From: a virus | DNA length: 64,000 bases | Virus record (IMG/VR): IMGVR_UViG_3300025889_000089 | Span: 26,575-90,574 of that record | Strand: one strand, 5' to 3' | Part shown: piece by piece, positions 42,264 through 60,225 of the stretch | Numbering within the stretch: position 1 is the first letter of the stretch | Layout: each line of letters opens with the position of its first letter | Position numbers and translations under genes: made by a program | Notes under the pieces: generated by a model | Told to the model about the DNA's origin: nothing | The model's input: only the letters and a program-made list of their open reading frames with translations | Databases searched by the model: none

Positions 42264-42469
42264 TGTGTAGAAAAGTATCAGACGTAAATCTAAAATCCCC
42301 ATCCCATATGTATGCTATAACATTAGTAGTCGGAACGTGGCTTGCCTGTTCTAGTATTGCTGGCGCATTTGCGGTAGATTATAATGGTATGCGAACATCT
42401 GTGACGCATATGATTTCCGAAAAAATATCAAAAAAACCTATTGACATGGACTACCACGACGATATATAA
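42263..42469 (+). CDS. Small membrane protein
   Basis: 68 aa with TAATG coupling. One membrane segment near residues 17-37 (AITLVVGTWLACSSIAGAFA). With the gene before it this may form a holin-type pair. Its last codons contain the -35 and -10 boxes of the tmRNA promoter. Confidence 0.55.
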   Translation: MCRKVSDVNLKSPSHMYAITLVVGTWLACSSIAGAFAVDYNGMRTSVTHMISEKISKKPIDMDYHDDI

Positions 42470-42476
42470 TAAATAC
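42441..42476 (+). promoter_or_regulatory. Dual early and late promoter of the tmRNA
   Basis: TTGACA (42441-42446), 18 nt, TATAAT (42465-42470). The -10 box runs into a T4-type late box (TAATAAATA, to 42475). The tmRNA could therefore be made throughout infection. Confidence 0.75.
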
Positions 42477-42538
42477 ATTAGAACGTTGAAGCAAACTCAA
42501 CGCTATACTGGACGGGGATGCAATTTCCCCCCGGTCCA

Positions 42539-42567
42539 CAAAGCACATTTTGCGGAGTGTTCTTTGT
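42539..42567 (+). other. Intervening segment removed from pre-tmRNA
   Basis: It links the two tmRNA pieces. The acceptor helix continues into it: CCACAAAG (42536-42543) pairs with CTTTGTGG (42562-42569), giving a 13-bp helix in the precursor that processing nucleases could cut. Confidence 0.75.
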
Positions 42568-42655
42568 GGGCCGGATATTTAGGATCGACAGGTAGTTAAT
42601 AGGTAAGTGGAGTTCTCGGTAGGCGATGACCGTAAATCAAGCAAACACAATAAAC

Positions 42656-42703
42656 GCAGCATCTAACGATAATGCTATTGAGGATATCCGCCTAGCGGCA
42701 TAA
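42656..42703 (+). other. tmRNA tag reading frame
   Basis: Codes for AASNDNAIEDIRLAA then stop, or one Ala less depending on the resume codon. The N-D-N core is shared with the Caulobacter-type tag. The LAA end is the signal read by ClpX. Confidence 0.85.
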
Positions 42704-42716
42704 TCTTCTTGGGTTC

Positions 42717-42755
42717 GGTGGGTTCCTAGAAACAGAATACCCACCATTTTATTAT
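42717..42755 (+). terminator. Terminator of the tmRNA
   Basis: GGTGGGT (42717-42723) pairs with ACCCACC (42739-42745), followed by ATTTTATTATT. It may double as the last helix of the coding piece. Confidence 0.75.
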
Positions 42756-42783
42756 TGACAAACTAAAGTAACTATAGTATAAT
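42755..42783 (+). promoter_or_regulatory. Near-consensus sigma70 promoter of a non-coding RNA
   Basis: TTGACA (42755-42760), 17 nt, TATAAT (42778-42783). No gene longer than six codons follows before the terminator at 43004. Confidence 0.85.
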
Positions 42784-42789
42784 GGTCTA

Positions 42790-43032
42790 TGAAATACAGT
42801 AAAAACTCAAGTATAAAGGGAGTTGATACTATGTCGTAGATAAATACTTACAAGTCGTAAGACGGAATATATGATATATTATGGGGCTGATCCCTACAGT
42901 CTATAGTTTAGGCAAAGTGTCCTAATCAAAGAGGTGTTTATTATAGTATATATGAAAGAATACATATACTAAAAATGTAGAGTTTCTAGTATATTTTAGT
43001 CAAAAGGGAGACTAAAAATAGTCTCCCTTTTT
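42790..43032 (+). ncRNA. Unassigned small RNA of about 240 nt
   Basis: Bounded by the promoter at 42755 and the terminator at 43004. Hairpins seen: AACTC/GAGTT (42804-42808 with 42820-42824), CTTAC/GTAAG (42847-42851 with 42857-42861) and TAGTATAT/ATATACTA near 42945-42971. It contains two tiny frames: AAAGGGAG, 8 nt, ATG-TCG-TAG at 42831-42839, and ATG 42952 to TAA 42972 (MKEYIY). The first is a minimal start-stop frame behind a strong ribosome-binding site that a hairpin could hide. No match to 6S, RNase P or tRNA that I can see. Confidence 0.6.
43004..43032 (+). terminator. Strong intrinsic terminator
   Basis: AAGGGAGACTA (43004-43014) pairs with TAGTCTCCCTT (43019-43029), 4-nt loop and T tail. 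Confidence 0.93.
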
Positions 43033-43034
43033 AC

Positions 43035-43063
43035 TTGACTGATACCATATTATATGGTATAAT
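43035..43063 (+). promoter_or_regulatory. Promoter with perfect palindrome in the spacer
   Basis: TTGACT (43035-43040), 17 nt, TATAAT (43058-43063). ATACCATAT-T-ATATGGTAT (43042-43060) is a perfect inverted repeat that fills the spacer and half the -10 box, so it is an operator candidate. Confidence 0.8.
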
Positions 43064-43096
43064 CATCCATCAACATTTATTACAGAGGAGTCCAAA

Positions 43097-43318
43097 ATGG
43101 CTAAAGGAAAAAAACCATCAGGTAAGACTTACGTATCAAAGGGTGAACGCCGCAATGTAGCAAAGTCAATTACGAAGGCGATGAAGCGTGAGCGTACTGG
43201 TGGTGAAAAGATGATGTATGCTTTGGAAGCATATAAGAAGGGTTTCAAGGTCAAAAAGTTTGGTTTTGATAGCCTTCCAGAATATCGTTTCAACCGCTAT
43301 GGCGGAACAAAAAAGTAA
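43097..43318 (+). CDS. Small basic early protein
   Basis: 73 aa with a CAGAGGAGT site. Lys- and Arg-rich (MAKGKKPSGKTYVSKGERRN...), so it may bind nucleic acid or ribosomes. It has its own operator-bearing promoter right after the tmRNA region, which hints at a linked role, but no family is recognised. Confidence 0.65.
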   Translation: MAKGKKPSGKTYVSKGERRNVAKSITKAMKRERTGGEKMMYALEAYKKGFKVKKFGFDSLPEYRFNRYGGTKK

Positions 43319-43327
43319 AATAATATA

Positions 43328-43355
43328 TTGACATATCACAGGAATGTGGTATAGT
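43328..43355 (+). promoter_or_regulatory. Promoter with inverted repeat, leaderless endolysin
   Basis: TTGACA (43328-43333), 16 nt, TATAGT (43350-43355), 6 nt, ATG 43362. ATATCACA-4 nt-TGTGGTAT spans the spacer, an inverted repeat with one mismatch, related to the one at 11546. Confidence 0.7.
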
Positions 43356-43361
43356 AAATAT

Positions 43362-44069
43362 ATGATGTACTCACCAAAGAAAATAGTCTTGCTTCTTACA
43401 GCAAGCTTTGTAGTTGGAGCAGTATCCGCCAAAATGTTTTCGGAAAAGGCTACTGCTTCTATTCCCGATGACGCTCCTGTTATTGAAGCAGTTCCTATTG
43501 AGCGTGTATTGGAAGTAGGACCGTTAAAGGCTACTGCTTCTATTCCAGATAACGCTCCTGTTATTGAAGCAGTTCCCGTTCAACGTGTGTTTGAAATAGG
43601 ACCGTTACCAGAACCGTTTCCTTGGGAAGAAACAAAGGGAACAATCCTTGATTGCGAACAGGAACGCCAGAGTGAGCGTATTGCTTTGGCTTGTAATATC
43701 TATCACGAAGCCCGTGGTGAAACTCTTAAAGGTCAAGTTGCCGTTGCTTTGGTGACTCGTAATCGTGTGAAATCTGAAAAATACCCCGATAGCTATAGTG
43801 AAGTGGTTTGGGAAATCCGCCGTTCAGCCAAAACCAAACGCCGTGTAGCACAGTTCTCTTGGGCGTTGGATGGTAAGCATGATAGGATTTACGATATTCA
43901 ATCATGGAGAACTGCTTGGGAAATCGCGGGTGATGTTATTGCTGGTAAGTATAAAGACTTTACCAATGGTTCTTTATGGTATCACGCCAAGAAGGTGAAA
44001 CCAGTATGGCGTAAAAAGTTTGAGGTTGCTGCGGTTATTGGAGAACATATCTTTTATCGCAAAAAGTAA
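43362..44069 (+). CDS. SleB-type cell wall hydrolase (endolysin) with signal anchor
   Basis: 235 aa from ATG 43362. Residues 5-25 (PKKIVLLLTASFVVGAVSA) are a signal or signal-anchor segment. A tandem 27-residue repeat (KATASIPD...EVGPL) links it to the catalytic domain. ALACNIYHEARGE is the SleB/Hydrolase_2 motif with its catalytic Glu, then VALVTRNRV, QFSWALDGK and GSLWYHAKKVKPVW. It cuts peptidoglycan. Secretion by the host Sec system would allow lysis without a classic holin. Confidence 0.9.
   Translation: MMYSPKKIVLLLTASFVVGAVSAKMFSEKATASIPDDAPVIEAVPIERVLEVGPLKATASIPDNAPVIEAVPVQRVFEIGPLPEPFPWEETKGTILDCEQERQSERIALACNIYHEARGETLKGQVAVALVTRNRVKSEKYPDSYSEVVWEIRRSAKTKRRVAQFSWALDGKHDRIYDIQSWRTAWEIAGDVIAGKYKDFTNGSLWYHAKKVKPVWRKKFEVAAVIGEHIFYRKK
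43446..43607 (+). repeat. Tandem repeat of 81 nt, two copies
   Basis: Copies 43446-43526 and 43527-43607 in the endolysin linker, in frame. They differ mostly at silent or conservative places. Confidence 0.92.
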
Positions 44070-44075
44070 TAAATA
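44069..44075 (+). promoter_or_regulatory. Late promoter, leaderless gene
   Basis: ATAAATA overlapping the endolysin stop, 5 nt, ATG 44081. Confidence 0.6.
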
Positions 44076-44080
44076 ACTTT

Positions 44081-44788
44081 ATGTTATTGAATGAACTTTT
44101 TAATAAAACGCAGACTTTCGTAGTTGAAGGCGGGAAAGTGTTCAAGGATGCAGATAAAAATCCGCTGACACAACGTATTAATCGTGATGACGTAGAACCA
44201 ACTGTTCGCTGGTTAGAAGATTTAACTGGTCTAAGTTTAGTTGACAATATGCTAGGCACCACTGGCAAAAAAGACACAAGTGGCGATTTAGATTTAGCAG
44301 TTGATGAAAATGAAATAGATAAAGATACACTAGTAAAAATTCTTTTACAAAAAGGTGTTGATAAAACAGACATCAAGAAGAGTGGCGACAATGTGCATTA
44401 TAAGACGCCAATAAATGGTGAACCAGTCAATGGATATGTACAAACCGATTTTATGTTTGGTAATCCACAGTGGCAAAAGTTTAGTATGCAAGGCAGTGGT
44501 GAAGAAAGTAAGTTCAAAGGTGTTCATAGACACATTCTTCTATCAAGCATTGCGAAAACTATGGGATATAAGTGGAGTTACAAGAACGGTCTTGTTGACA
44601 GAGAAACCAATGCTGTTCTTGATGGCGGCAAAAACCCCGTAATAATTAGCAAGACTTTAGGTATTCCTATTCAGAATCTAAATGATGTTGATGGTATTAT
44701 CACGGCTATAAAAGACCGACCAAATTATCAAGAGTTAGTAGCAGACGCCAGAGAAACTTTTGCAAGAGACAATCTGGAACTGCCATGA
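44081..44788 (+). CDS. Nucleotidyltransferase-like protein
   Basis: 235 aa. MLGTTGKKDTSGDLDLAVDENEID near residue 60 fits the G-(S/T)...D-x-D core of the Pol-beta nucleotidyltransferase superfamily. TDFMFGNPQWQKF near 125 could give the third acidic residue. Members add nucleotides to RNA, protein or small molecules. The start MLLNELFNKTQTF resembles a head-targeting leader. Coupled to the ligase-like gene. Confidence 0.6.
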   Translation: MLLNELFNKTQTFVVEGGKVFKDADKNPLTQRINRDDVEPTVRWLEDLTGLSLVDNMLGTTGKKDTSGDLDLAVDENEIDKDTLVKILLQKGVDKTDIKKSGDNVHYKTPINGEPVNGYVQTDFMFGNPQWQKFSMQGSGEESKFKGVHRHILLSSIAKTMGYKWSYKNGLVDRETNAVLDGGKNPVIISKTLGIPIQNLNDVDGIITAIKDRPNYQELVADARETFARDNLELP

Positions 44789-45930
44789 GATTTTTTGAAT
44801 TCGCCAATCCACTCGTAGAGGATGAACTACTTATGGAAGCTGCCCGTATCCAACACGCAGAAGATGTTGTTTTTTGGGAAGGAAGTAAGGGTGCAATAAG
44901 AGCATTGCATAGTTTGAGAAATATGGACAAAGGCTCCCATAAAGATACTACTATAAAGTGGGATGGTAGTCCTGCTGTTATTTTCGGGCGTGATGAAGAA
45001 GGTAACTTTATCTTCACTGATAAATCAGGTTTTACCGCAAAAGGTTATGATGGTAAGGCAAAGAGTGCAGAACATCTAGAAAAAATGCTAACGAGCCGCC
45101 CCGGTTTCGCCAAAAATCCAAAAGGGTATGGTCCATTTATTGCTGCAATGAAATCTGCCTACAATAGTTTTGAAAGAGCAGTTCCGTTGGATTACCGTGG
45201 ATTCTTCAAAGGAGACATGCTTTATTTCACTACACCGAAAGTAAAGAATGGCGAATACGTTTTCACTCCAAACATCGTAACGTATAGCGTTGACGTAGAC
45301 AGTGAGCTAGGAAACAAAATAGGTAAAAGTGTAGCTGGTGTAGTTATTCATAGACAAGTTGGGCCAGATGGAACAGAAAGTCCATTGGATGGATATGACA
45401 TATTCCAAGGCGAAGAAGTTTTGGTTGTCCCACCGGTTACCGTTGAAAAGGAACCATTTGTTCCACATGATAGCTTGAATATATTAGAGAAGATTATTAA
45501 GAAAGATGCGGCGGCGATTGATACAATGCTTGACACTGATACGTTACGTGCTTTGAAGATAACTGATTTCCCCCAAGTCTTGTATGCCTATACCAATAGT
45601 AAAGTCGATACAGGTCTTACCGAAATGGGCAAGGATTTTGGTGCGTGGCTAAAGAACTCGAAACTAAGTGAACGAAAGAAACAAAATATCGCCCAATACA
45701 TTTCCGAAAATAGTGCTGGATGGAAAGCATTATGGGAAGTTGTCGGTGGCATTATGAAAGCAAAAGACGAAATAATCTATGATATCGATTCACAAGGTAG
45801 TACTGTCAAACAAAGCATTGCTGGACAAGGCGGCGGCGAAGGTTATGTCTTAGCCCATCCAGAAGGCGATATAAAACTAGTCCCGCGAGAATACTTCTCA
45901 AAAGCAAACCGTGCAGCAAGGATGACATAA
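44785..45930 (+). CDS. Ligase-like nucleotidyltransferase (K-x-D-G family)
   Basis: 381 aa. TTIKWDGSPAVIFGRD near residue 55 is the adenylation motif of DNA/RNA ligases and capping enzymes (K-x-D-G with Lys58). EGYVLAHPEGDIKLVPRE near 360 fits motifs IV and V (E-G-x-V ... K-L). The middle differs from known ligases, so it may join or cap an unusual substrate. It begins MRFFEFANPLVED, a head-targeting-like start. It lies between two other nucleotidyl-transfer genes. Confidence 0.65.
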   Translation: MRFFEFANPLVEDELLMEAARIQHAEDVVFWEGSKGAIRALHSLRNMDKGSHKDTTIKWDGSPAVIFGRDEEGNFIFTDKSGFTAKGYDGKAKSAEHLEKMLTSRPGFAKNPKGYGPFIAAMKSAYNSFERAVPLDYRGFFKGDMLYFTTPKVKNGEYVFTPNIVTYSVDVDSELGNKIGKSVAGVVIHRQVGPDGTESPLDGYDIFQGEEVLVVPPVTVEKEPFVPHDSLNILEKIIKKDAAAIDTMLDTDTLRALKITDFPQVLYAYTNSKVDTGLTEMGKDFGAWLKNSKLSERKKQNIAQYISENSAGWKALWEVVGGIMKAKDEIIYDIDSQGSTVKQSIAGQGGGEGYVLAHPEGDIKLVPREYFSKANRAARMT

Positions 45931-46570: not shown

Positions 46571-47265
46571 TGAGACTTCACGAAATCACCGAAGGCATCC
46601 TTGATCCAGATCAAGAGTTTATGCAGCGTTTCACATACGCTGTTGAGGACGCCGCACGTGAATACGCAGAGTTTCTAAAAGACAATAACGACCAAGACGA
46701 TCCAGAAGAACTTGCTTCTATCCTTGAAACATTCTTTGAGGAAGAAGACCTACCCATTACCGTTCATGTTGGTGAGTCTGGACGAAATGCTGTTGATTGG
46801 TATATCCAAGCCGCACAAGTCACAGGTAGTGGCGAAATGGACCTGATACTTGACCCTGATAGTATTGATGGGCATTGGGGTCCAGAAACATTCATTGATG
46901 TGATGACGAAAACATTTGAGCATGAAACAATCCATCTACAACAGCGTGATCGTATGGGTGCAGACAAATATAACAAACTACCATCTGGCTATATGAAAGG
47001 TCTAAAGAAGGCAGAAAAAACAGGTAAAGAGCGTGACCTTATGAGAACCTATTTCCGTGACCCACAAGAGTTGATGGCACACGGACACGACATTTACCGT
47101 GAAGTTATCAAACTTTCTGATCCAGAAGCGGTATTACGAAACCCCGAAAAACACCGTGAAGACCTACCAACATACGACAAACACCGCCAAATCTTCCCAC
47201 CAAACGCCAAACCTTTACAGCGTATGATGAAATACGCCTATCAATATTTCCAAAAAAACGCTTGA
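46570..47265 (+). CDS. Zinc metalloprotease-like protein with head-targeting-like start
   Basis: 231 aa. TFEHETIHLQQRDR near residue 118 is an H-E-x-x-H zinc site, and YFRDPQELMAHGHDIY could give the third ligand. The start MRLHEITEGILD resembles the cleaved leader of T4 Alt. The gene could be an injected protease or a maturation protein. Coupled by TAATG. Confidence 0.6.
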   Translation: MRLHEITEGILDPDQEFMQRFTYAVEDAAREYAEFLKDNNDQDDPEELASILETFFEEEDLPITVHVGESGRNAVDWYIQAAQVTGSGEMDLILDPDSIDGHWGPETFIDVMTKTFEHETIHLQQRDRMGADKYNKLPSGYMKGLKKAEKTGKERDLMRTYFRDPQELMAHGHDIYREVIKLSDPEAVLRNPEKHREDLPTYDKHRQIFPPNAKPLQRMMKYAYQYFQKNA

Positions 47266-47289
47266 CATAATCATAATCTGTGCTATACT
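47262..47289 (+). promoter_or_regulatory. Early promoter of the TTGACA-N16-TATACT family
   Basis: TTGACA (47262-47267), 16 nt ending TGTGC, TATACT (47284-47289), then GTATACAG. Confidence 0.8.
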
Positions 47290-47313: not shown

Positions 47314-47598
47314 ATGTGGAATGAACCCCCCAACAGCTTTACTTTCTGTGACGAGAATGCTTCCCCCGAAGATGTGGAACTGTTTCTTGGTCCTGATCCC
47401 GAAGAAAAAACCACCTTCATTCGTTTTGGTGAAGACTTCACGATGGCTGATGTAGCCGTCGCCACGGGCAAGTTCCCGTCCAAATCACAGGCTCGTAAGA
47501 ATGGTTGGGATGGTGATATCCCCACTGGTTTCACTGAAAAAACTCTTGGTAAGAACGCCAAGAAGGTTCACATCTGGATTTTCAAGAAGTTCGACTAA
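47314..47598 (+). CDS. Early protein, S4-like block
   Basis: 94 aa from ATG 47314, with GGAG 6 nt before it. VATGKFPSKSQARKNGWDGDIPTG near residue 50 resembles an S4-like RNA-binding helix pair (K-F-x-x-S-x-x-x-A-R-K). The next gene, coupled by TAATG, is an Smr nuclease, so a ribosome or RNA link is plausible but unproven. Confidence 0.5.
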   Translation: MWNEPPNSFTFCDENASPEDVELFLGPDPEEKTTFIRFGEDFTMADVAVATGKFPSKSQARKNGWDGDIPTGFTEKTLGKNAKKVHIWIFKKFD

Positions 47599-47837
47599 TG
47601 CCACTTGACCTTCACGGATATCACACCCACGATGGCTGGAAACGCTTTATGGATGAAGTGGATGATGCCTATGATCGTGGTGTAAAATCATTCAAAGTGA
47701 TCACTGGCAAAGGTCAGATGCGTGTAGAGTTTCGCATTTGGGCAGAGAACCATTCTAAAGTGCGTAAAGTTGAACTGAACAAAGATGGCGGAAGTTTCAA
47801 AGTAACATTACGCAAAAAACCACTTGACAAATCCTAA
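47598..47837 (+). CDS. Stand-alone Smr-domain nuclease
   Basis: 79 aa, essentially one Smr domain. PLDLHGYHTHDGWKRFMDEV at the start gives the D-L-H-G motif and FKVITGKGQMRVEF gives the T-G-K-G loop. Smr proteins include SmrB, which cuts mRNA between collided ribosomes and hands them to tmRNA, and MutS2. The typical loop is H-G-x-G; here it is T-G-K-G, as in many small alphaproteobacterial Smr proteins. Expression is early. Link to the phage tmRNA is inference. Confidence 0.85.
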   Translation: MPLDLHGYHTHDGWKRFMDEVDDAYDRGVKSFKVITGKGQMRVEFRIWAENHSKVRKVELNKDGGSFKVTLRKKPLDKS

Positions 47838-50565: not shown

Positions 50566-52200
50566 ATGAAAAGTACTGCTGTAATGGGCTGGCTTGCCCT
50601 CTTTATGTCTTTAGCTATCGCCGCTTGTGCGGCGTATTTTAGTATTGCTGGTTTGGCGGTATTGTTTGCCGCCGCTCTCATTCCTGTTATCATTATGGCT
50701 ACCACGCTGGAGATTGGGAAGCTCGTAGCAACTTTCTTCCTGCATAGATTTTGGGAAGAATTGCCGGGGCAAATAAAATATCCAATGACAATGATGGTCG
50801 TTATTCTTATGCTTATTACGAGTATGGGTATCTTTGGTTTCTTATCTAAGGGACACATTGAACAAGAAGCACCAGAAATCTCAATGCAAACTGAGATAGA
50901 TAACGTTGATAATCAGATCGGTTTCCACAAGGGTGCTATCAAGGACATTGAGAAAGACCTTGCACAAATTCGTGAAAGTCTAGACAGATACACTGAATTA
51001 GGTGCTGTTACAAAAGGTCTAGCAGCACGAGAAAAACTACAAAAAGATATTGACGGTCTACGAGAAAAGATTGCTAAAGAGCGTAAAGAAATCCGTACCC
51101 TTGAAGAAGAGAAGTTAAATATTAGACAACGAATAAATGAGATTGAAGCCAAGCTTGGTCCTGTAAAGTACGTTGCAGAATTATTTGGCTTTGACCTCAA
51201 GGAAGACCCGCAAGGTAAGGGTAAAGCAGTCCGTATTGTTATTGTGCTATTCATGCTTGCTTTTGACCCGTTGGCTATTTGGCTGGTCATGGCTAGTGAT
51301 TGGGCTTTCCTAAAGTATCGCAGAGAAAGAGAAGAACTAGGCTTAGACGAAAAAGAGGAAGAAGAGCGTCAGCGTAAACTAGAAGAAGAAGAGCAAAGAA
51401 GACTACAAAAGATAGCTGAAAAAGAAAAAGAACTAGAAGAAAAACTATCTAAAAAAAACCTGACCAAAGAGGAAGAAATGACCGAGCTTGAGGAAGCATT
51501 GGTCCAAGTGTATCATCAACTAGAGGAAAAAGAAATGGAACTAAAAGAGTATACCGCAATCCTAGAAGAGCTAGGTCGCACGTTGGATGAAAAGCCAACG
51601 GAAATTGAGAAAATCGTTGAGATTGAGAATACTGAAAAACTAGAAGAAATGGTTGCCGAAATTAACCAACTTGAAAGTCAGAAGATAAACCTAGAGCAAG
51701 AAATGGAAAGTATTCGTGCTAGTTTGATGACAAAGGAACAAGTTGCAGACGAGCTAAAACAAGCTTTGGTAGAAGTTAGAAACGAACTAGAAAGTATTCG
51801 CCAAGAGAATAACGCTCTCAGAAGTGACATTGAAGCACGTGATAATGCAGTTGCTTCGTTGAATAAGAAATATAATCTTGTTGAGAAAATCCCAGGTATG
51901 GTTCTTCGTCCCGACACAGGTACGCCAAAAGACGCTACCTTTGGTACAGATTTCCCATCTAACCCAGTAAACGGTCAGCAGTTTCTTCGTGTTGATGAAC
52001 TACCAAGTAAACTATACAAGTACGATGGTTCCCGTTGGGTAGAAGTTGTAAAAGACGTTGATGTTGAGTACGATGAACAATATCTACAGCATCTTATTAA
52101 CGAGTTGGGAGAAGGCAACGTTGAACTTGACGACTTGAGCCAAAAAGAACAAGAGGAAATCCAAGCCTTATTAAGCAAAGACGATGTACTCGGACAATAA
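50566..52200 (+). CDS. Membrane protein with long coiled coil
   Basis: 544 aa. Three or so N-terminal membrane segments lie at about residues 5-50 and 70-92. A periplasmic or cytoplasmic coiled coil (about 105-205) follows, then another membrane segment (about 222-245), then over 200 residues of Glu/Lys-rich coiled coil, ending in a small Trp/Tyr-containing domain. This layout could sense or tether envelope and cytoplasm. Found, as far as I recall, in other marine T4-like phages without known role. It leads the operon to ClpX. Confidence 0.7.
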   Translation: MKSTAVMGWLALFMSLAIAACAAYFSIAGLAVLFAAALIPVIIMATTLEIGKLVATFFLHRFWEELPGQIKYPMTMMVVILMLITSMGIFGFLSKGHIEQEAPEISMQTEIDNVDNQIGFHKGAIKDIEKDLAQIRESLDRYTELGAVTKGLAAREKLQKDIDGLREKIAKERKEIRTLEEEKLNIRQRINEIEAKLGPVKYVAELFGFDLKEDPQGKGKAVRIVIVLFMLAFDPLAIWLVMASDWAFLKYRREREELGLDEKEEEERQRKLEEEEQRRLQKIAEKEKELEEKLSKKNLTKEEEMTELEEALVQVYHQLEEKEMELKEYTAILEELGRTLDEKPTEIEKIVEIENTEKLEEMVAEINQLESQKINLEQEMESIRASLMTKEQVADELKQALVEVRNELESIRQENNALRSDIEARDNAVASLNKKYNLVEKIPGMVLRPDTGTPKDATFGTDFPSNPVNGQQFLRVDELPSKLYKYDGSRWVEVVKDVDVEYDEQYLQHLINELGEGNVELDDLSQKEQEEIQALLSKDDVLGQ

Positions 52201-52564
52201 ACTTATCATAGTTTCTTCTCCTACGTACTATCACGGCAATGTACCAAGTCTTATGCTTTATGATATAGAACCCGATGATATGAAGATCATTATGGAGATT
52301 CTACTTGATTCGGATATCGTTATGAGTGTTCATTTGGGGTATTCCGATAAATCAGAGCGCGAATGGTTGTTAAATACTAGTAGACAGGTTGACAGAACGA
52401 TTGTTAATCTTCAAAAACATGATTTGATTAAAGGATTTATATTGAATTACCCCACTGTTTCGTATTATAATAATACACACGATATAGAGTCGTTGAATAT
52501 GAACCAACTAACTGATCCCATCGATTACATACTGAGGTTTGTGCATGAGCAAAGAGACGAATGA
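52184..52564 (+). CDS. Hypothetical protein before clpX
   Basis: 126 aa, overlapping the genes on both sides (17 and 20 nt). Mixed alpha-beta with LIIVSSPTYYHGNVPSLMLYDIEP at the start. No known motif. Tight coupling to clpX suggests a role with it, for example as an adaptor, but this is only context. Confidence 0.6.
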   Translation: MYSDNKLIIVSSPTYYHGNVPSLMLYDIEPDDMKIIMEILLDSDIVMSVHLGYSDKSEREWLLNTSRQVDRTIVNLQKHDLIKGFILNYPTVSYYNNTHDIESLNMNQLTDPIDYILRFVHEQRDE

Positions 52565-53804
52565 AAAGAACTTAAACTGCGACTTTTGTGGAAAGAACCG
52601 CAACGAGGTCGATAAGCTTATTGTGGGCAACGATACAAGCATTTGTAATGAGTGTGTTGATCTATGTCATGACATTCTTGAGAACGATAGGTTTACCAAA
52701 CTAAAGAAAAACCTAATCAACAAAGACTATCTAAATCCCATCAAAATCAAAGAACACCTAGACAAATATGTTATTTCACAAGATAAAGCAAAGATTGCTT
52801 TATCCGTTGCCGTAGCAAATCATTTCAAGCGTATTAATCATCCCCCCAAAGACCTAAAGATTGAGAAGTCAAATATCATGATTGCTGGTCCTACTGGTAA
52901 CGGTAAGACTATGCTTGCCCGTGCAATCGCGGAATATCTAGAGGTTCCATTTGTTATCGCTGACGCCACTACTCTTACAGAGGCTGGTTATGTAGGCGAT
53001 GATGTAGAAAGCATTATTTCCCGTTTGCTACACGTTGCTGATTACGATGTGGAGAAAGCACAGAACGGTATTATCTTCATTGACGAGATTGATAAGATTG
53101 CCCGTAAAAGTGAGAATGTATCTATTACCCGTGATGTATCTGGTGAAGGCGTACAGCAAGCCCTATTAAAACTAGTAGAAGGCACGGATTGTCGTGTAGC
53201 ACCACAAGGTGGGCGTAAGCACCCATCACAAGAGTTGATCAATGTCAACACAGAAAACATCCTATTCATTGCGTCTGGCGCATTCGTGGGACTTGATAAG
53301 ATTATTGAGAAACGCAAAACACCAGGTAGTATCGGCTTCGGTGCAACTATTTCTGAAAAAGAAAAAGACACACTAGAAATGTTGAATGATATTGAACCTC
53401 ACGATTTCGTGAGTTTCGGTCTTATCCCTGAGTTCACTGGTCGTTTCCCTGTATTCACTCATGTTGAGAAACTTGATGCGGCTGATTTGGTTCATATTAT
53501 GACTGATACTAAGAACTGTATTATTGACCAGTATAAGTATTATTTCACCTTACAGGACATTGAGTTGGAGTTCAGCAAGGAAGCGTTAGTGGCTATTGCT
53601 GATAAAGCGGTTACATTAGAAACTGGTGCCCGTGGTCTAAAGAGCATCATTGAGGATGTATTATTGCCACATCAGTTTCATATGTATGATTACGCCAAGG
53701 ATGGTGTAAAAAAACTTATTGTAGATGAGGCTACAATCGAGTATAATGATAAGATAAAGTTTGTTTATGAAGAGGTATCAAATGGCAAAACAGAAAGAGT
53801 TTAA
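52545..53804 (+). CDS. clpX: ClpX unfoldase
   Basis: 419 aa from ATG 52545. Zinc domain C12-x2-C15...C34-x2-C37, Walker A GPTGNGKT (115-122), pore loop GYVG (148-151), Walker B IIFIDE (176-181), RKH loop (224-226), ClpP-docking IGF loop (263-265) and a C-terminal [11 protein letters not shown] sensor-2 block. ClpX unfolds proteins with C-terminal LAA tags and feeds them to ClpP. All loops for tag binding and ClpP docking are kept, so it can probably work with host ClpP. No clpP is seen here. It overlaps both neighbours. Confidence 0.97.
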
Positions 53805-54048
53805 CGGCTCAACTATTACAATCAAGTATCCCCCGAATCCTACTGACGAACAGAAGGCAAAAGCGTTCAACAACGGTTTGCGTAAGTTCAAGAAGATGGT
53901 TCAGACTGAGGGTATCATCCAGGAATATCGTGAACGTGAGTTTTATGAGAAACCAACTACTCGTCGCCGAAGAGAAAAGTCGATGGCTCGTAAGCGTTGG
54001 CTAAAGCGCCAGCGTGAACTAGAGAACGAGCGTTGGGGTAATACTTGA
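53782..54048 (+). CDS. rpsU: Ribosomal protein bS21
   Basis: 88 aa from ATG 53782 ([10 protein letters not shown]), overlapping the clpX end by 23 nt. FNNGLRKFKKMVQTEGIIQEYREREFYEKPTTRRRREKSMARKRW matches the bS21 core (A-L-R-x-F-K-x-x-x-x-x-x-G-I-x-x-E-x-x-x-R-x-x-Y-E-K-P). bS21 sits by the anti-Shine-Dalgarno end of 16S rRNA and shapes initiation. Phage-encoded bS21 is known from pelagiphages and huge phages. It may replace the host copy to favour phage mRNAs. Confidence 0.92.
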   Translation: MAKQKEFNGSTITIKYPPNPTDEQKAKAFNNGLRKFKKMVQTEGIIQEYREREFYEKPTTRRRREKSMARKRWLKRQRELENERWGNT

Positions 54049-54074
54049 CAAATCCCATTATATTGTGATATAAT
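54045..54074 (+). promoter_or_regulatory. Promoter of hsp20, overlapping early and late boxes
   Basis: TTGACA (54045-54050), 18 nt, TATAAT (54069-54074), followed at once by GATAAATA. The leader to ATG 54186 is about 105 nt. Confidence 0.75.
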
Positions 54075-54085: not shown

Positions 54086-54188
54086 GTGAGGATATGCCAT
54101 AAGGGTGTCCTCACCTTACTACCCGCAGATGCCGAATGGTTCGGGTCTGCATTACATAACTTGCTTAGATATAAGGAGTAAAGCAATG
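54086..54188 (+). promoter_or_regulatory. ROSE-like RNA thermometer in the hsp20 leader
   Basis: Three successive hairpins: GTGAGGA/TCCTCAC (54086-54092 with 54108-54114); GCAGA/TCTGC with inner CCGAA/TTCGG (54125-54150); and a weak last one in which ACTTGCTT (54159-54166) pairs with AAGGAGT (54173-54179), burying the ribosome-binding site with one bulged G. TTGCT against AGGAG with a bulged G is the signature of ROSE elements, which control hsp20 genes in alphaproteobacteria and melt on heating. Confidence 0.7.
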
Positions 54189-54614
54189 AAAACATTAACA
54201 CATCGTGATTTTCCACAACTCGTCGGCTTTGACCGTCTATTCAATGAACTAGATCGTTTGACTACAGCATCTTCTGGTTCATCCGCAGGGTATCCCCCAT
54301 ACAACGTAATCAGTGAGAGTGACAACGATTATATCGTAGAGATTGCTGTTGCTGGTTTCAGCGAGGATGCTTTGAGCATTGAAGAGCATGACGGAACATT
54401 GACTATTCGTGGTATTCCAGCAGAAGGTGAAGAAGATCGTAAGTACGTTCATAAAGGTATTTCTAACCGTAAGTTTGAGCGTTCATTTACATTGGCTGAC
54501 CACGTTCATGTCGAAGGTGCATCTGTTGAGAACGGACTTCTGACCATTAAGTTGATTCGTGAAGTCCCAGAGGAACTACAACCTCGTAAGATTGCTATTG
54601 AATATAAGAAGTAA
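54186..54614 (+). CDS. Small heat-shock protein (Hsp20/IbpA type)
   Basis: 142 aa from ATG 54186. The alpha-crystallin domain runs from about residue 38 to 130: YPPYNVISESDNDYIVEIAVAGF, LTIRG, then GISNRKFERSFTLADHVHVEGA and the closing NGLLTIKLIRE. It holds unfolding proteins. T4-like cyanophages also carry hsp20 genes. Here the gene has its own promoter and RNA thermometer, unlike most phage genes. Confidence 0.95.
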   Translation: MKTLTHRDFPQLVGFDRLFNELDRLTTASSGSSAGYPPYNVISESDNDYIVEIAVAGFSEDALSIEEHDGTLTIRGIPAEGEEDRKYVHKGISNRKFERSFTLADHVHVEGASVENGLLTIKLIREVPEELQPRKIAIEYKK

Positions 54615-54680: not shown

Positions 54681-54713
54681 ACTTAGTATATTATTCAAAG
54701 AAGGGTGCTATCA

Positions 54714-55196
54714 ATGAAACAGAATCCGATACTATTCAAATGGTGGATACAAACAGTTGTTATTATATTTGCGTCTGTTATCGCTGGTCATCTTGGTTGG
54801 TGGGAAGCACTATGGGATGCTGACCAAACAAAGATTTCTATTCTTATTCTATTTCTATTCGTTCTTTCAACTTTGGGCGCTGGATATATCAGTAAGGAAA
54901 ATACCCAAGAAGTTTTAGAAAAATATCAGAACTATGTTTGGTTCGCCAGTGAAGCAATGATTACCCTTGGGATGATTGGAACGGTTGCCGGCTTCCTTAT
55001 TCTTCTTGGAAATGGGTTTGAAAGTATTGATGTTACCGATACAAAAAGTCTGCAAAATATTATTGCTGGCATGGCGGTTGGTATGAGTACAGCCCTTACA
55101 ACTACTTTGGTTGGTCTGATTGGTTCAGTATTGACTAAACTGCAAATGGTTATTATTGAGAACAGTTGGGAAGACGATGAGGAAGTACAGAAGTAA
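54714..55196 (+). CDS. MotA/TolQ/ExbB-family proton-channel subunit
   Basis: 160 aa from ATG 54714. Two membrane segments at residues 15-30 and 43-60, then SEAMITLGMIGTVAGFLILLG near 85 and IIAGMAVGMSTALTTTLVGLIGSVLTKLQ near 120, which is the conserved pore part of ExbB/TolQ/MotA. These proteins form a pentamer that turns proton flow into motion with ExbD/MotB-type partners. The next gene is such a partner. Confidence 0.88.
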   Translation: MKQNPILFKWWIQTVVIIFASVIAGHLGWWEALWDADQTKISILILFLFVLSTLGAGYISKENTQEVLEKYQNYVWFASEAMITLGMIGTVAGFLILLGNGFESIDVTDTKSLQNIIAGMAVGMSTALTTTLVGLIGSVLTKLQMVIIENSWEDDEEVQK

Positions 55197-55845
55197 TCAG
55201 CGTTTTAAAGCAAGTTTTGGAATGATTGACTTATTATTCAATCTATTGATTGGATTCGTCTTTCTTTTCATTATTGCTTTCATTATGATTAGACCTATTA
55301 CCAAGACAAAAACCATTGATCCAAAAGCGGAATACTTGATTATTATGAGTTGGCCGGAGGGTGATGAAAACGACATTGATTTATGGGTAAAAGCAGAGAA
55401 ATCAAAGATTGTAAGTTTTCGTTCCAAGGATAGTGGATTGATGCACCTTGACCGCGACGATCTTGGTGGAACAAACGATACTATCATTGTTGATGGAAAA
55501 CCTACTAAAAGCAAAATCAACCGTGAAGTTGTTTCCATCCGTCAAAAAATACAAGACAAATATTATGTAAATGTTCATTGGTATTCACAAAAGGGTGAGA
55601 ATAGTGCGATTGCTGATATCAAAGTAGAAGTAATATTGCTTCGTGTGAATCCTTATAAAGAAGTTGCTAAATCAACAGTTGTTCTTCCTACGAAGGGAGC
55701 AGAGGGCGCAGCATTTCAGTTCTACATTGGGGAAGATGGTGATATTGAGCAAGTTACAAAAGATGAAGAACGATGGGTAATGGGTGAAGTACAAGCATAT
55801 ATTGATAATGCCGGTGGCGCTATGGATAGAGTGAACGGACCATAA
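55177..55845 (+). CDS. ExbD/MotB-like partner subunit
   Basis: 222 aa from ATG 55177, overlapping by 20 nt. FGMIDLLFNLLIGFVFLFIIAFIMI near residues 14-38 is one membrane helix with an early Asp, the proton-carrying residue in ExbD/TolR/MotB. The rest is a beta-rich periplasmic domain (about 50-222), larger than in ExbD, with no peptidoglycan-binding motif I can see. It would be the moving part of the complex. Confidence 0.75.
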   Translation: MRKYRSNQRFKASFGMIDLLFNLLIGFVFLFIIAFIMIRPITKTKTIDPKAEYLIIMSWPEGDENDIDLWVKAEKSKIVSFRSKDSGLMHLDRDDLGGTNDTIIVDGKPTKSKINREVVSIRQKIQDKYYVNVHWYSQKGENSAIADIKVEVILLRVNPYKEVAKSTVVLPTKGAEGAAFQFYIGEDGDIEQVTKDEERWVMGEVQAYIDNAGGAMDRVNGP

Positions 55846-56356: not shown

Positions 56357-56659
56357 ATGACTGATACTGATATTGCTGAAAAAGTAAAGACTAATACCCG
56401 ACTAAAAGAACCATCAATGTTCAATGTTATCTATCTAAACGACGAACAGACAACGATGCAGTTTGTCGTTGATACACTTATTCGTCATTTTGATTATGAT
56501 GATTCAAGTGCTATGGAAAAGATGGCTGAAATCCATGATGAAGGTGCTGGTGTTGTTGCTACACTACCATATGAAATGGCTGAACAGAAAGGTGTAGAAG
56601 TAACGATTGAAGCACGAAATCTTGGTTTCCCGTTACAGGTAAAGGTGGAACCAGCGTAA
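56357..56659 (+). CDS. clpS: ClpS adaptor
   Basis: 100 aa. PSMFNVIYLNDEQTTMQFVVDTLIRHFDYD matches the ClpS pocket region, with the N-D pair that contacts the N-terminal residue. IHDEGAGVVATLPYEMAEQKGVEVTIEARNLGFPLQVKVE completes the fold. ClpS brings N-end-rule substrates to ClpAP and blocks tag-bearing ones. The unstructured N-terminal tail is present but short. Coupled to the next gene by overlap. Confidence 0.93.
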   Translation: MTDTDIAEKVKTNTRLKEPSMFNVIYLNDEQTTMQFVVDTLIRHFDYDDSSAMEKMAEIHDEGAGVVATLPYEMAEQKGVEVTIEARNLGFPLQVKVEPA

Positions 56660-57183: not shown

Positions 57184-57494
57184 GGAAAATGTGGCCCAAG
57201 ACGCACATACTGAACGGACTTGGCGAACAGCAAGTCAATCATGCACAGTATTATGCTTTGCGAATGGCAGAAGAAATGGATAAAGCTGAAAGAAAACTAC
57301 GCGAAACAAACGATAGACTAAATGATGATGAACGTCTGGCGGATGATATTATCAAAGAGCAGATAATAAAGAAAAAGCTAGAGGTAGCAGAACATTGGTT
57401 AGTTCCATTGACAACCTATGTAGAACAAGCACGAGAAAACTTGGATTATATTGAGCCAGAAGATAACCCGATTATGAAGGAACGTGGAGAATGA
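57180..57494 (+). CDS. Coiled-coil hypothetical protein
   Basis: 104 aa, highly charged helix throughout, coupled on both sides by 4-nt overlaps. No recognised family. Confidence 0.6.
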   Translation: MRKMWPKTHILNGLGEQQVNHAQYYALRMAEEMDKAERKLRETNDRLNDDERLADDIIKEQIIKKKLEVAEHWLVPLTTYVEQARENLDYIEPEDNPIMKERGE

Positions 57495-57676
57495 GAAATA
57501 CAGTCTTTGATCTATTTTTATATCTCTATGTAGTATTCGCTTCAATTACTATGGCGGGTTTGATCGGTGCTTGGGCAACAGTAGGTATACAGGATACTAA
57601 ACTATGGTTTGTGATCCCATTACTGGTTAGTGCAGCCTTTGCTGCTAAAATGATGACACAGCGAGAACAGAAATGA
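57491..57676 (+). CDS. Small two-helix membrane protein
   Basis: 61 aa. Hydrophobic helices at residues 4-28 and 36-52 with a basic end. Coupled to both neighbours. Could be a holin-like or complex subunit. Confidence 0.6.
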   Translation: MRNTVFDLFLYLYVVFASITMAGLIGAWATVGIQDTKLWFVIPLLVSAAFAAKMMTQREQK

Positions 57677-58029
57677 AAATTATTTTTGGAAGAGAAAACG
57701 CAGAAAAGTTCAAAGACAACTATATCGTTCTTGAACTGGACACATTCAATGTGACCAATGTTGGTGAGGTAGTAACCTTTTGTGTATTATCCGCAGAAGA
57801 AATCCCGCTTGGTATGTTACCAGAACTACCACACTGGACAGAGTTTCATAATAAACTATTGAATGGTTATAGAACCAAGCAATGGAACTTTTGCCTTGAC
57901 TGTATCTCAAACCTAAAGGGAAAACTTGGTGGCGAGATTGATACATTCTATGATAATCTAAAACAGCGTATTGAAGTATATAGGGACACTGGCGTTCCCG
58001 ACGATTGGACACATATACTCCAACGATAA
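57673..58029 (+). CDS. Hypothetical protein
   Basis: 118 aa, mixed alpha-beta, coupled to the previous gene. NAEKFKDNYIVLELDTF, LPHWTEFHNKLLNGYRTKQW blocks. No known family. Confidence 0.6.
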   Translation: MKIIFGRENAEKFKDNYIVLELDTFNVTNVGEVVTFCVLSAEEIPLGMLPELPHWTEFHNKLLNGYRTKQWNFCLDCISNLKGKLGGEIDTFYDNLKQRIEVYRDTGVPDDWTHILQR

Positions 58030-58032
58030 ATA
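58026..58032 (+). promoter_or_regulatory. Late promoter overlapping a stop codon
   Basis: ATAAATA contains the TAA stop before it and lies 4 nt before ATG 58037. Confidence 0.6.
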
Positions 58033-58036
58033 TTGT

Positions 58037-58258
58037 ATGAAGTTATTCATAGTAGCCTTTATCTATATATGTACAAATGGTGGGTTCGTATGTAATGAAG
58101 AACCTATCACTAAAACGTGGCGATACGAAGATGGGAAAGACCCATCCATCATTAAAGAAAAGTGTGAGAAATGGATTCATGAAAAGATATGGGAAATGCC
58201 TTTGAAGCCTGGTGAAATAGCACAAGCAAGATGCCAGTTACAGCTAATAAAAGAATAA
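58037..58258 (+). CDS. Small secreted protein
   Basis: 73 aa from ATG 58037. Signal peptide MKLFIVAFIYICTNGGFVC followed by a charged mature part with Cys residues. Predicted periplasmic. No family recognised. Confidence 0.6.
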   Translation: MKLFIVAFIYICTNGGFVCNEEPITKTWRYEDGKDPSIIKEKCEKWIHEKIWEMPLKPGEIAQARCQLQLIKE

Positions 58259-58304
58259 AAAATATGCTGAAAAAATAGTGGAGAAAAAAGTAGACGATAT
58301 TATC

Positions 58305-58310
58305 TAAATA
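58305..58310 (+). promoter_or_regulatory. Late promoter, leaderless gene
   Basis: TAAATA, 4 nt, ATG 58315. Confidence 0.5.
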
Positions 58311-58314
58311 CTGT

Positions 58315-58878
58315 ATGTATGAACAGTTATTTATATGGACCGTCCTAACTTTAGTTCCTCTTATTCCAACTTATGTAACACATAGGTTTTTAGAGAGTTC
58401 TGCTACATATAAAGCCGCACACCAGGGTATCAAACTTGGTGGTGCTATTGCTGCTTATTTCATTCTATTGGGCACAGCGTTTTACACATATAATAATATG
58501 TTCAATGACCCGCTTTCAGATATTCGCCAAGCATTATCTGGTGAATGGTCTTGTACGGGTTCCATCACTGAATCTGATAAAGAGTTTGACCCAACAAAGT
58601 CTATTTCATCGTCAATGAATATTCATGTAAATGGCGGTAATCGTATTTCACTAACTGGTCATATTCCTTCTATTTTTCTACACTGGCAAGCAGAAGAAGT
58701 TATCGTGACTGAAAAAGAGTTGATTTACATCTTCAATATTCCAATCAAAAACTCAACAGGCATTACTTGGTTATCGTTCAACCGCACAGATGGTGAGATT
58801 CTTGGTCTTTTCGGTCATTGGGTTATCTCAGGCGAAAAAGGCAAAGGTTCGCTAACCTGTTTCAGAAATAATCAATAA
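58315..58878 (+). CDS. Membrane protein with periplasmic beta domain
   Basis: 187 aa. Two membrane segments (residues 2-20 and 42-60), then a beta-rich domain (about 78-187) that begins GEWSCTGSITESD and ends GEKGKGSLTCFRN with two cysteines that may bridge. This lipocalin-like pattern suggests an envelope protein. Role unknown. Confidence 0.6.
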   Translation: MYEQLFIWTVLTLVPLIPTYVTHRFLESSATYKAAHQGIKLGGAIAAYFILLGTAFYTYNNMFNDPLSDIRQALSGEWSCTGSITESDKEFDPTKSISSSMNIHVNGGNRISLTGHIPSIFLHWQAEEVIVTEKELIYIFNIPIKNSTGITWLSFNRTDGEILGLFGHWVISGEKGKGSLTCFRNNQ

Positions 58879-58884
58879 AAACAC

Positions 58885-58912
58885 TTGACAATATCATAAT
58901 TTATGCTATACT
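58885..58912 (+). promoter_or_regulatory. Early promoter of the TTGACA-N16-TATACT family
   Basis: TTGACA (58885-58890), 16 nt ending TTATGC, TATACT (58907-58912), followed by GTATATAG, giving CTATA-CTGTA-TATAG, a small inverted repeat at the start site. Confidence 0.8.
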
Positions 58913-58943
58913 GTATATAGAAATTGAGATTGGAGAGATACAA

Positions 58944-59195
58944 ATGATCAACTATATTTCTGCTAACGACGGTGGTCTTGAGTTTCACACTGGGAATGGT
59001 GGGGCTTTCTTGGTTTCACGCGACATCAATGAGTTGGTTGGTTTTGCGCTGGATCATGGTTTCGCTGAAACTGTGATGGGTTCGTCCACGATGGACTTTG
59101 CCAGTGAGTATGGCTTTGAGACTAACGAAGGTGCCGATGAACTCTTGGAGAAAGTGTTTCGGCGGGTTGCTTTTGTAACGGAAGGTGTTGTCTAA
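58944..59195 (+). CDS. Early hypothetical protein
   Basis: 83 aa with a TTGGAGAGAT site. Gly- and Phe-rich with an acidic end. First gene of an early operon of five tightly coupled small genes, all with GC-richer codons. No family recognised. Confidence 0.65.
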   Translation: MINYISANDGGLEFHTGNGGAFLVSRDINELVGFALDHGFAETVMGSSTMDFASEYGFETNEGADELLEKVFRRVAFVTEGVV

Positions 59196-59368
59196 TGGAT
59201 CAATATACCGCAGTTGGCCTTGCTGAAGGTTTCATTGAAGCTGAAAGCGAAGAACAAGTGATTGAAGCGTGGCAGTATCTGATCGATACAGGGCTGGCCT
59301 ATCGTCTACAAGGATGGTTTGGCCGCACCGCAACCGACCTGATTGAACAGGGGATTTGTGATGGATAA
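59195..59368 (+). CDS. Early small protein
   Basis: 57 aa, coupled by TAATG. Helical, acidic: EAESEEQVIEAWQYLIDTG then GRTATDLIEQGIC. Short proteins with the same W-Q-Y-L-(I/V)-D-T-G...A-x-x-L-I-x-x-G pattern are common in phages of this kind. Function unknown. Confidence 0.65.
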   Translation: MDQYTAVGLAEGFIEAESEEQVIEAWQYLIDTGLAYRLQGWFGRTATDLIEQGICDG

Positions 59369-59534
59369 AGTGTTTATTGTTGAAGTAATGCGTGATGGTG
59401 TCGTTTCACGCGAAGGTGTGTATGCTTCGGTTGAAAAAGCCAACGCGGTACAGAAACGGCTTGAAGAATGCCGTGATGCATCTGGCGAACCGTTTTACGA
59501 TTTCGTCTTCAACCAAGAGGCGATTGTAAACTGA
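59361..59534 (+). CDS. Early small protein
   Basis: 57 aa from ATG 59361, overlapping by 8 nt. KVFIVEVMRDGVVSREGVYASVEKANAVQKRL resembles small beta-alpha proteins common among phage early genes. Coupled to the next gene. Confidence 0.6.
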   Translation: MDKVFIVEVMRDGVVSREGVYASVEKANAVQKRLEECRDASGEPFYDFVFNQEAIVN

Positions 59535-59734
59535 TGACTGATAAGCCAGAAATCTACCCGTATATTACGATTGAGCGGTCTTCTGTTGATCCCGAAGGAT
59601 GGGGTGGCGATGTTCGTTATTACAAAACGATTGGCCACGCTCGTTCTGTAAAGGAAACGATTGAAGAAGCTTACCGTGATTCGGATGGCGAAACCGTGGA
59701 TATTCGTATCTACAAACTTGAAGAAATCACTTGA
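59534..59734 (+). CDS. Early small protein
   Basis: 66 aa. Similar in size and beta-alpha layout to the gene before it. Ends just before the promoter of the Pth2 gene. Confidence 0.6.
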   Translation: MTDKPEIYPYITIERSSVDPEGWGGDVRYYKTIGHARSVKETIEEAYRDSDGETVDIRIYKLEEIT

Positions 59735-59758
59735 CAATCCACCAAAATATGTTATACT
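59731..59758 (+). promoter_or_regulatory. Early promoter with inverted repeat at the -10 box
   Basis: TTGACA (59731-59736), 16 nt, TATACT (59753-59758). GTTATA-CTGTA-TATAAC (59751-59767) is a perfect inverted repeat over the -10 and start site. Confidence 0.8.
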
Positions 59759-59781
59759 GTATATAACAGTTGGAGAGATTT

Positions 59782-60225
59782 ATGACCGATACATTCCCCG
59801 TTCTTTACATCCTGATGCGTAATGACCTTGCCAGCATGAACGCTGGTAAGGCGATGGCACAGGCTTCCCACGCTTCTAACGCTTTTGTTGATCAAATGTC
59901 ACAAGAAGAAGATAAGTTTGAAGGATATTCTACCAACCCTGACGACGATGCCGACTTGAAGCTGTTTTGGAAATGGCGTACAGAGACTGAACAGGGTTTC
60001 GGCACTGTTTTGGTTCTGGCTGTGAACGAAGCACAGATGCGTACCGCAGTTGAAGTTGCTGGTGCGATGGGGTTTGTTTCTGGCGTTGTTCACGATCCAA
60101 CCTACCCGTTGCGTGATGGCGACACGACACACTTCTTGCCGGTTGACACCTGTTCGTTCATCTTTGGCGACAAAAACGATCCAATGCTTGGCGCTGTTGT
60201 TGGCAACTTCCCACTGCATCCATAA
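59782..60225 (+). CDS. Pth2-type peptidyl-tRNA hydrolase-like protein
   Basis: 147 aa from ATG 59782 with a TTGGAGAG site. YILMRNDLASMNAGKAMAQASHASNAF at residues 8-34 matches the Pth2 signature (V-R-x-D-L-x-M-x-x-G-K-x-x-A-Q-x-x-H-A). A GFGTVLVLAVNEAQM strand, a VAGAMGFVSGVVHDPTYP segment and a closing D-T-x-S-x-x-x-G follow the family order. An acidic insertion of about 30 residues lies in the middle. Pth2 frees tRNA from stalled peptides. It has its own strong early promoter. Confidence 0.75.
   Translation: MTDTFPVLYILMRNDLASMNAGKAMAQASHASNAFVDQMSQEEDKFEGYSTNPDDDADLKLFWKWRTETEQGFGTVLVLAVNEAQMRTAVEVAGAMGFVSGVVHDPTYPLRDGDTTHFLPVDTCSFIFGDKNDPMLGAVVGNFPLHP

Follow-up and report, generated by a model that had tools for sequence, protein, structure and literature searches.

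An old ClpX-bS21-Hsp20-ClpS cluster and probable accessory ribosome-rescue genes in an aquatic jumbo myophage

Transfer-messenger RNA (tmRNA), Smr-domain proteins, ClpX, ribosomal protein bS21, the small heat-shock protein Hsp20, ClpS and peptidyl-tRNA hydrolases have each been reported previously in phages. Nearly the same set has been published for the Sinorhizobium jumbo phage AP-J-162, with tmRNA, six Clp proteins, Hsp20, S21 and peptidyl-tRNA hydrolases (PMC11242549), and the Clp and hydrolase part for Agrobacterium phage Atu_ph07, with seven Clp-type proteins including ClpX and ClpS and two peptidyl-tRNA hydrolases (PMC6102473). Huge phages with tmRNA, SmpB and S21 are known (PMC7162821), Hsp20 and Clp proteases have been listed among the neighbours of phage bS21 genes by Chen et al. 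(PMC9723584), and permuted (two-piece) tmRNAs with a degradation tag are described in the marine myophages Melnitz and Mosig, with similar functional ideas; 50 of the 53 two-piece phage tmRNAs surveyed are from aquatic phages (PMC9004378). Here we analyse a window of 64,000 bases (bases 26575–90574 of a 90,574-base viral record) that carries all seven features within 18 kb. A preliminary description had presented them as a chain not known to be described as a phage system; although we found no paper treating tmRNA, ClpS and peptidyl-tRNA hydrolase together in a phage, the description of AP-J-162 covers nearly the same set and the claim of novelty is overstated.

The record is probably a fragment, since its relatives span 200–500 kb. 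Its terminase is of the T4 type; among named phages the Pseudomonas PA5oct group comes closest (53% identity), followed by Phosso of Sinorhizobium and further jumbo myophages. We take the source to be an aquatic jumbo myophage with terminase kinship to PA5oct (Wroclawvirus). Host assignment from the nearest bacterial ClpX was dropped, as the best matches are only ~50% identical and spread over many phyla, and the phage ClpX forms a separate old clade. Parts of the stretch from tmRNA to ClpX are matched in three other contigs at 99.9–100% nucleotide identity, and it is therefore not an assembly accident. PA5oct and MIJ3 (Wroclawvirus, Arenbergviridae) share with the window, besides the terminase, the order nrdA-nrdB...clpX-rpsU(bS21)-two open reading frames (ORFs)-hsp20-clpS, but they have no permuted tmRNA, Smr or PTH2 (peptidyl-tRNA hydrolase 2) match, carry ClpP and FtsH nearby, and their ClpX is only 41% identical. 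Phosso (PV764938) has the permuted tmRNA, ClpX, bS21, Hsp20, ClpS, Smr and PTH2, together with ClpP, and keeps the cluster order with insertions (clpX...S21...hsp20-tk-clpS), although its tmRNA lies 48 kb from clpS. Both Phosso and AP-J-162 differ from the window in that their genomes are 469–471 kb, the genes are dispersed over them, and IF-3 and RRF are also encoded. Atu_ph07, in which we also found bS21 and Smr matches, has no tmRNA in either our search or the published table (PMC11242549), and Melnitz and Mosig belong to a different phage group, where a glutamine riboswitch is linked to the tmRNA (PMC9004378); none was seen in the window.

Comparison with relatives favours a reading, to which we give a probability of about 0.72, in which an old g108-[ClpX]-bS21-Hsp20-ClpS cluster is joined by independent accessory genes, all of them spare parts that would plug separately into host SmpB, ClpP and ClpA. 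The seven features are real and lie where the preliminary description had placed them: the tmRNA is recognised by Rfam, and Smr, ClpX, bS21, HSP20, ClpS and PTH2 by Pfam, all above curated cut-offs. The cluster and its flanking genes are as follows.

50566–52200, + strand: g108, a membrane/coiled-coil protein of unknown function and fixed upstream neighbour (upstream in 66 of 68 ClpX loci).
52545–53804, + strand: ClpX, full length (Pfam zinc finger, AAA and D2-small; NCBIfam 550 bits against a cut-off of 359).
53782–54048, + strand: ribosomal protein bS21 (Pfam 51.5 against 27; NCBIfam S21 55 against 28.95).
54186–54614, + strand: Hsp20, an IbpA/IbpB-like small heat-shock protein (alpha-crystallin domain, 70.4 against 20.8).
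56357–56659, + strand: ClpS (Pfam above cut-off; N-degron pocket and ClpA-contact positions conserved).
57673–58029, + strand: g120, a 118-aa protein of unknown function, usual downstream neighbour of ClpS (58 of 82 loci).

Hsp20 accompanies ClpS in all 82 ClpS-anchored loci, which come from viral contigs plus PA5oct and Phosso and many of which are short; bS21 is present in 54 of these and ClpX in 27. When 57 loci are anchored instead on ClpX, 53 of them have ClpS downstream on that strand at a distance of no more than 3.7 kb, 54 have Hsp20 and 41 have bS21, and neither PTH2 nor Smr occurs in any. In a tree of 30 phage and 28 bacterial ClpX sequences, 27 of the 30 phage rows form one clade (support 100/99), and ClpX of this type has therefore long been a phage gene. 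We read this as a proteostasis cluster that has long resided in phages; Hsp20 and ClpS are almost always present in it, whereas ClpX and bS21 are optional. The ClpX motifs are intact, including the zinc-binding domain, Walker A and B, the GYVG and RKH pore loops, the IGF ClpP-docking loop and sensor 2. ClpS residues N28, D29, T32, H60, E73 and K78, which we take to form the N-degron pocket and ClpA contacts, are invariant in 17 of 17 sequences aligned to E. coli ClpS. ClpS, PTH2 and Smr all score below the NCBIfam equivalog cut-offs and are thus diverged family members.

Several observations bear on these genes in other genomes and on the window's own insertions. One related contig (G031, L226; 524,565 bases) has its ClpX, bS21, ClpS and ClpP genes twice, on opposite strands near both ends, and its 524-kb size is not to be trusted because it is probably a palindromic assembly of one genome. 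Jumbo phages Vibrio 2.275.O, CBB, Munch, 121Q and XaC1 (W05–W09) have ClpS-family and ClpP-family genes, the XaC1 ClpS match being below cut-off, and gave no ClpX zinc-finger match or permuted tmRNA. Between Hsp20 and ClpS in the window (54705–55845, + strand) lie a MotA/ExbB/ZorA-like protein, with weak ZorA matches in NCBIfam and PADLOC, and then a membrane protein; these are found in only 5 of the 82 related clusters.

The remaining genes under study are these.

42480–42703, + strand: permuted tmRNA gene, precursor core (RF04321, 93.4 bits against a cut-off of 47).
42514–42538, + strand: tmRNA acceptor piece (T arm GGGGA-UGCAAUU-UCCCC, acceptor 3' strand CCGGUCC, discriminator A).
42568–42574, + strand: tmRNA acceptor 5' strand GGGCCGG (G3-U70 pair, alanine identity).
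42656–42703, + strand: tag frame AASNDNAIEDIRLAA, followed by a stop codon (resume codon placed by alignment).
47598–47837, + strand: stand-alone Smr domain protein, 79 aa (DLH and TGKG motifs; no N-terminal hook).
59782–60225, + strand: PTH2-fold protein, a diverged member of the peptidyl-tRNA hydrolase 2 family (Pfam PTH2; AlphaFold model, Foldseek 7e-07 to Pth2 structures).

Presence and absence were surveyed in 41 records and pairwise associations in the 19 records of at least 200 kb. The survey found the permuted tmRNA in 15 records, ClpX in 20, PTH2 above cut-off in 12 and Smr in 7, with ClpS above cut-off in 33 and bS21 and ClpP-family genes in 25 each. Co-occurrence above chance in relatives, the test that the preliminary description had set itself, did not emerge: tmRNA and ClpX are found together in 3 of the 19 larger records (4 if a sister contig is used to complete one of them; odds ratio 0.5–0.8), no gene pair, including tmRNA and PTH2, is significantly positive by Fisher tests that ignore relatedness among the phages and serve only as a screen, and only the ClpX/bS21/Hsp20/ClpS core is linked. 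Distances give the same division, with bS21 (22 of 23) and ClpX (17 of 18) within 6 kb of ClpS, and tmRNA (0 of 12), Smr (0 of 7), ClpP (0 of 22) and PTH2 (3 of 10) rarely or never so; the three PTH2 cases are the window species and one relative type. The tmRNA is 7–119 kb from ClpS in 12 records. The two closest lineages with both tmRNA and Smr (G033 and G034) have tmRNA, Smr, g108, bS21, Hsp20 and ClpS in the window order, with Smr inverted, and no ClpX in the cluster. Stated conservatively, this lineage has tmRNA and Smr on the same stretch of genome as the cluster, and ClpX is not coupled to tmRNA. The permuted tmRNA, the lone Smr and the PTH2-like gene are probably accessory genes gained or lost independently. 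A co-selected chain is not supported, because co-occurrence is not above chance, G033 and G034 lack ClpX, and SmpB, which trans-translation requires, is absent from 41 of 41 records; the 90.6-kb contig has none.

It was Rfam that settled the identity of the tmRNA: the beta model RF01850 also matches (42427–42751, 86.5 bits), ARAGORN reported no tmRNA at the window locus, and the one-piece model RF00023 gave nothing above cut-off in the 41 records. The locus is 100% identical in L273/L274. The preliminary description had named a tmRNA without noting its permuted, two-piece form. Its 7-bp acceptor stem pairs a downstream 5' strand with an upstream 3' strand, and pairs G1-C72, G2-C71 and G3-U70 are kept in all 14 phage permuted tmRNAs compared (the window and 13 others), with pairs 4–7 varying with compensation. 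The window tag ends in -LAA, a Clp-type degron, and the related phage tags all end in -AA preceded by L, V, M or I, as in ANDNFAHEDFALAA and ANDNVAYEDYALAA of the nearest Smr-bearing relatives, ASNDNFVPMAVAA of the nearest relative (G006) and ANDNVSTKVALAA of Phosso. The conserved acceptor and tag ends are as expected if selection had acted for charging by alanyl-tRNA synthetase and for a Clp degron. CCA is not encoded after the window acceptor (ACAA stands there instead), the sole such case among the 14, and host CCA addition is therefore needed.

The spacer removed from many phage permuted tmRNAs contains a Shine-Dalgarno sequence and an ORF of 21–48 aa for a single-transmembrane peptide, e.g. 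MDHEAVLLGAFVLIGLVLVFF and MNPAYVISGILLLTVVLIHVYF (L133, L135, L130 and L234, tmRNA loci of relatives, and L285, L286, L296, L303, L312, L320 and L340), with the stop codon one base 5' of the acceptor stem in most. Spacer pairing partly accounts for the start and stop context of these ORFs and not for their hydrophobic middle; the window's own spacer has no such ORF. A second class of spacer ORF, of 18–28 aa, ends ~74–92 nt before the acceptor stem and in many cases has a GDSDEEPSSKK-like motif (L290-L293, L298, L313, L317, L333, L355 and others). In G006 a GOLLD RNA (202 bits) and a tRNA lie ~2 kb downstream of the permuted tmRNA (L415, 14305–14766, – strand). On the window, between tmRNA and g95 (42755–43037, + strand), a perfect sigma-70-type promoter is followed by a ~245-nt non-coding stretch that folds better than shuffled sequences (z –4.0), terminates in a strong hairpin and T run and has no Rfam match above cut-off; it is a candidate phage small RNA. 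The lysin gene g96 carries, in its N-terminal part, an 81-base tandem duplication that is 89% identical (43445–43607, + strand).

Sequence searches of the Smr and PTH2-like proteins against the Protein Data Bank gave nothing useful, and predicted structures compared by Foldseek were informative. The AlphaFold model of the window Smr has the Smr fold, and among its matches are Smr domains of SmrB and MutS2 whose structures were determined on collided ribosomes. Ten phage proteins all have the DLH motif unchanged. In SmrB these residues are catalytic, and an N-terminal hook recruits the enzyme to ribosomes (PMC10897456). This uS2-binding hook is absent from the window protein, in which the motif begins at residue 4 of 79 and the open frame is only 94 codons. 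The window Smr resembles E. coli SmrB and the B. subtilis MutS2 Smr domain in fold, and SmrB in its DLH, but differs from them in having no hook, KOW or ATPase domain and in the replacement of HGxG by TGKG (PMC10897456). Cutting at stalled ribosomes, as the preliminary description proposed, fits the motif and the fold, whereas the missing hook argues against it.

The PTH2-like protein resembles archaeal and eukaryal Pth2 (1rlk, 1xty, Bit1) in its fold (template modelling score ~0.75–0.78 by target) and in an N-terminal MxxGKxxAQxxHA-type motif, but is only ~20% identical to them and has a rebuilt C-terminal active-site region (D-P-T-Y-P plus inserts). It belongs to a family (phrog_1866) listed as of unknown function. 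The Pfam match and the fold bear out a Pth2-like protein, but its C-terminal active site is not intact and it scores 23.2 bits against the NCBIfam Pth2 equivalog cut-off of 126.

The same description placed ClpS as a tuning step of a tmRNA-ClpXP chain. ClpS serves ClpAP, favouring N-degron substrates and inhibiting ClpAP degradation of ssrA-tagged ones (PMC9663308), and because of this it does not stand downstream of tmRNA and ClpXP; it is a switch acting in parallel, which could at most leave tagged proteins to ClpXP.

Sequence matches to host-type promoters were found ahead of four of the genes.

42441–42470, + strand: perfect consensus sigma-70-type promoter, TTGACA-18-TATAAT, ahead of tmRNA.
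47262–47289, + strand: near-consensus promoter (11/12) ahead of g101-Smr.
54045–54074, + strand: consensus promoter (12/12) ahead of Hsp20.
59731–59758, + strand: near-consensus promoter (11/12) ahead of PTH2.

Perfect TTGACA-16/18-TATAAT sites number 4 in the window against 0.13 expected, and near-perfect sites on the 90-kb contig 18 against ~3 in first-order random sequence. A near-perfect promoter occupies the same place before the tmRNA of G006, and G033 and G034 have one ahead of bS21; the scan found no such site directly ahead of ClpX. The T4-late promoter TATAAATA is not enriched in the window (8 matches against 5.2 expected).

What we observed is the identity of the genes, their motifs, synteny and co-occurrence, and from these we infer every biochemical step that follows. 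Host RNases would process the two-piece tmRNA, and host enzymes add CCA and alanine. With SmpB from the host, which would also supply ClpA, the tmRNA may free ribosomes stalled on broken mRNAs, appending an -LAA tag readable by host or phage ClpX. The IGF loop of the phage ClpX would dock on ClpP, either the host's or one encoded in another part of the phage genome; no ClpP was found on the 90.6-kb contig, and 17 of the 19 related records of at least 200 kb have a ClpP-family match. ClpS may dock on host ClpA and turn ClpAP toward N-degron substrates and away from ssrA-tagged ones, while bS21 would swap into host ribosomes and Hsp20 hold phage proteins prone to aggregation. The parts would act in parallel on common resources (free ribosomes, amino acids and folded virion proteins) and not as a linear chain. 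Investment of the phage in translation and proteolysis is supported, because the genes are genuine, have mostly intact motifs and recur in relatives; that much of the earlier proposal stands, without a co-selected chain.

Four points weigh against an old cluster with independent accessory genes. In the window species, G033 and G034, tmRNA and Smr lie on one segment with the cluster, ~7–14 kb upstream of ClpS. Strong host-type promoters before tmRNA, Smr, Hsp20 and PTH2 would fit a common programme, and the placement of these sequence matches is the best evidence left for one. The sample consists of incomplete contigs partly selected through ClpS, so that absences are tentative. Matches in the ClpP set range from strong (200–270 bits) to weaker (~95–146 bits) and may include other S14 peptidases, e.g. 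prohead proteases.

Of the alternatives, the one that survives best, although we consider it unlikely, is a role for the cluster in making virions: ClpX, Hsp20 and ClpS would be chaperones or adaptors that help to fold, assemble or clear structural proteins, bS21 would bias translation, and tmRNA, Smr and PTH2 would be unrelated passengers. The cluster is downstream of ribonucleotide reductase and tail/PAAR-type genes in the window and downstream of ribonucleotide reductase in PA5oct, and the constant pairing of Hsp20 with ClpS agrees with this; Chen et al. report that phage bS21 and Hsp20 are expressed late, with Clp genes among the bS21 neighbours (PMC9723584), and Iyer et al. suggest that ClpX may help virion assembly (PMC7824862). 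However, the promoters at Hsp20 in the window and at bS21 in G033 and G034 are of the sigma-70 and not the unenriched T4-late type, and the intact N-degron motifs of ClpS and ClpP-docking motif of ClpX are unneeded for assembly alone.

Counter-defence or host takeover is less probable still. Here ClpS and ClpX would give host ClpAP and ClpXP the specificity to degrade proteins of the host or of its defences, with host proteins marked by the tag. Iyer et al. propose that phage ClpS delivers substrates to host ClpAP (PMC7824862), the authors of the Melnitz study propose tmRNA tagging of host proteins for recycling (PMC9004378), and the ClpS pocket is conserved; but no target was identified in this analysis, no unusual motif stands out in the tag, and tmRNA and ClpX are unlinked. 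We regard as similarly improbable a dispersed, sigma-70-driven programme (tmRNA, Smr, Hsp20-ClpS and PTH2) that would keep ribosomes free during mRNA destruction, with ClpX as an optional disposal arm using the -LAA tag and with the programme, not the cluster, as the selective unit. Least probable, and disfavoured as a single chain, is the original model of one co-adapted system, with Smr cutting mRNA where ribosomes collide, tmRNA tagging what they had made, ClpX and ClpP degrading it, ClpS tuning and Pth clearing peptidyl-tRNA: the 18-kb proximity, the kept DLH and collided-ribosome fold of Smr, the -LAA tag, the strong promoters and the collinearity of tmRNA-Smr-bS21-Hsp20-ClpS in three lineages speak for it, and against it stand the lack of positive association of tmRNA with ClpX or PTH2, the ClpX-less G033 and G034, the variable distance between tmRNA and ClpS, the hookless Smr (PMC10897456), the opposition of ClpS to ClpAP degradation of ssrA substrates (PMC9663308), the absence of SmpB, and a Pth protein of the archaeal/eukaryal type 2 family that has diverged.

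The proximity of these genes in one genome thus did not survive comparison with relatives, and a tempting story is corrected. What emerges is a deeply conserved ClpX-bS21-Hsp20-ClpS cluster carried by an abundant aquatic jumbo-phage group, together with phage tmRNAs whose alanine identity and Clp-type tags have been retained, as selection would predict. Cultured phages, PA5oct for the cluster and Phosso for the full set, thereby make it testable whether phages control ribosome rescue and the Clp proteases of their hosts.

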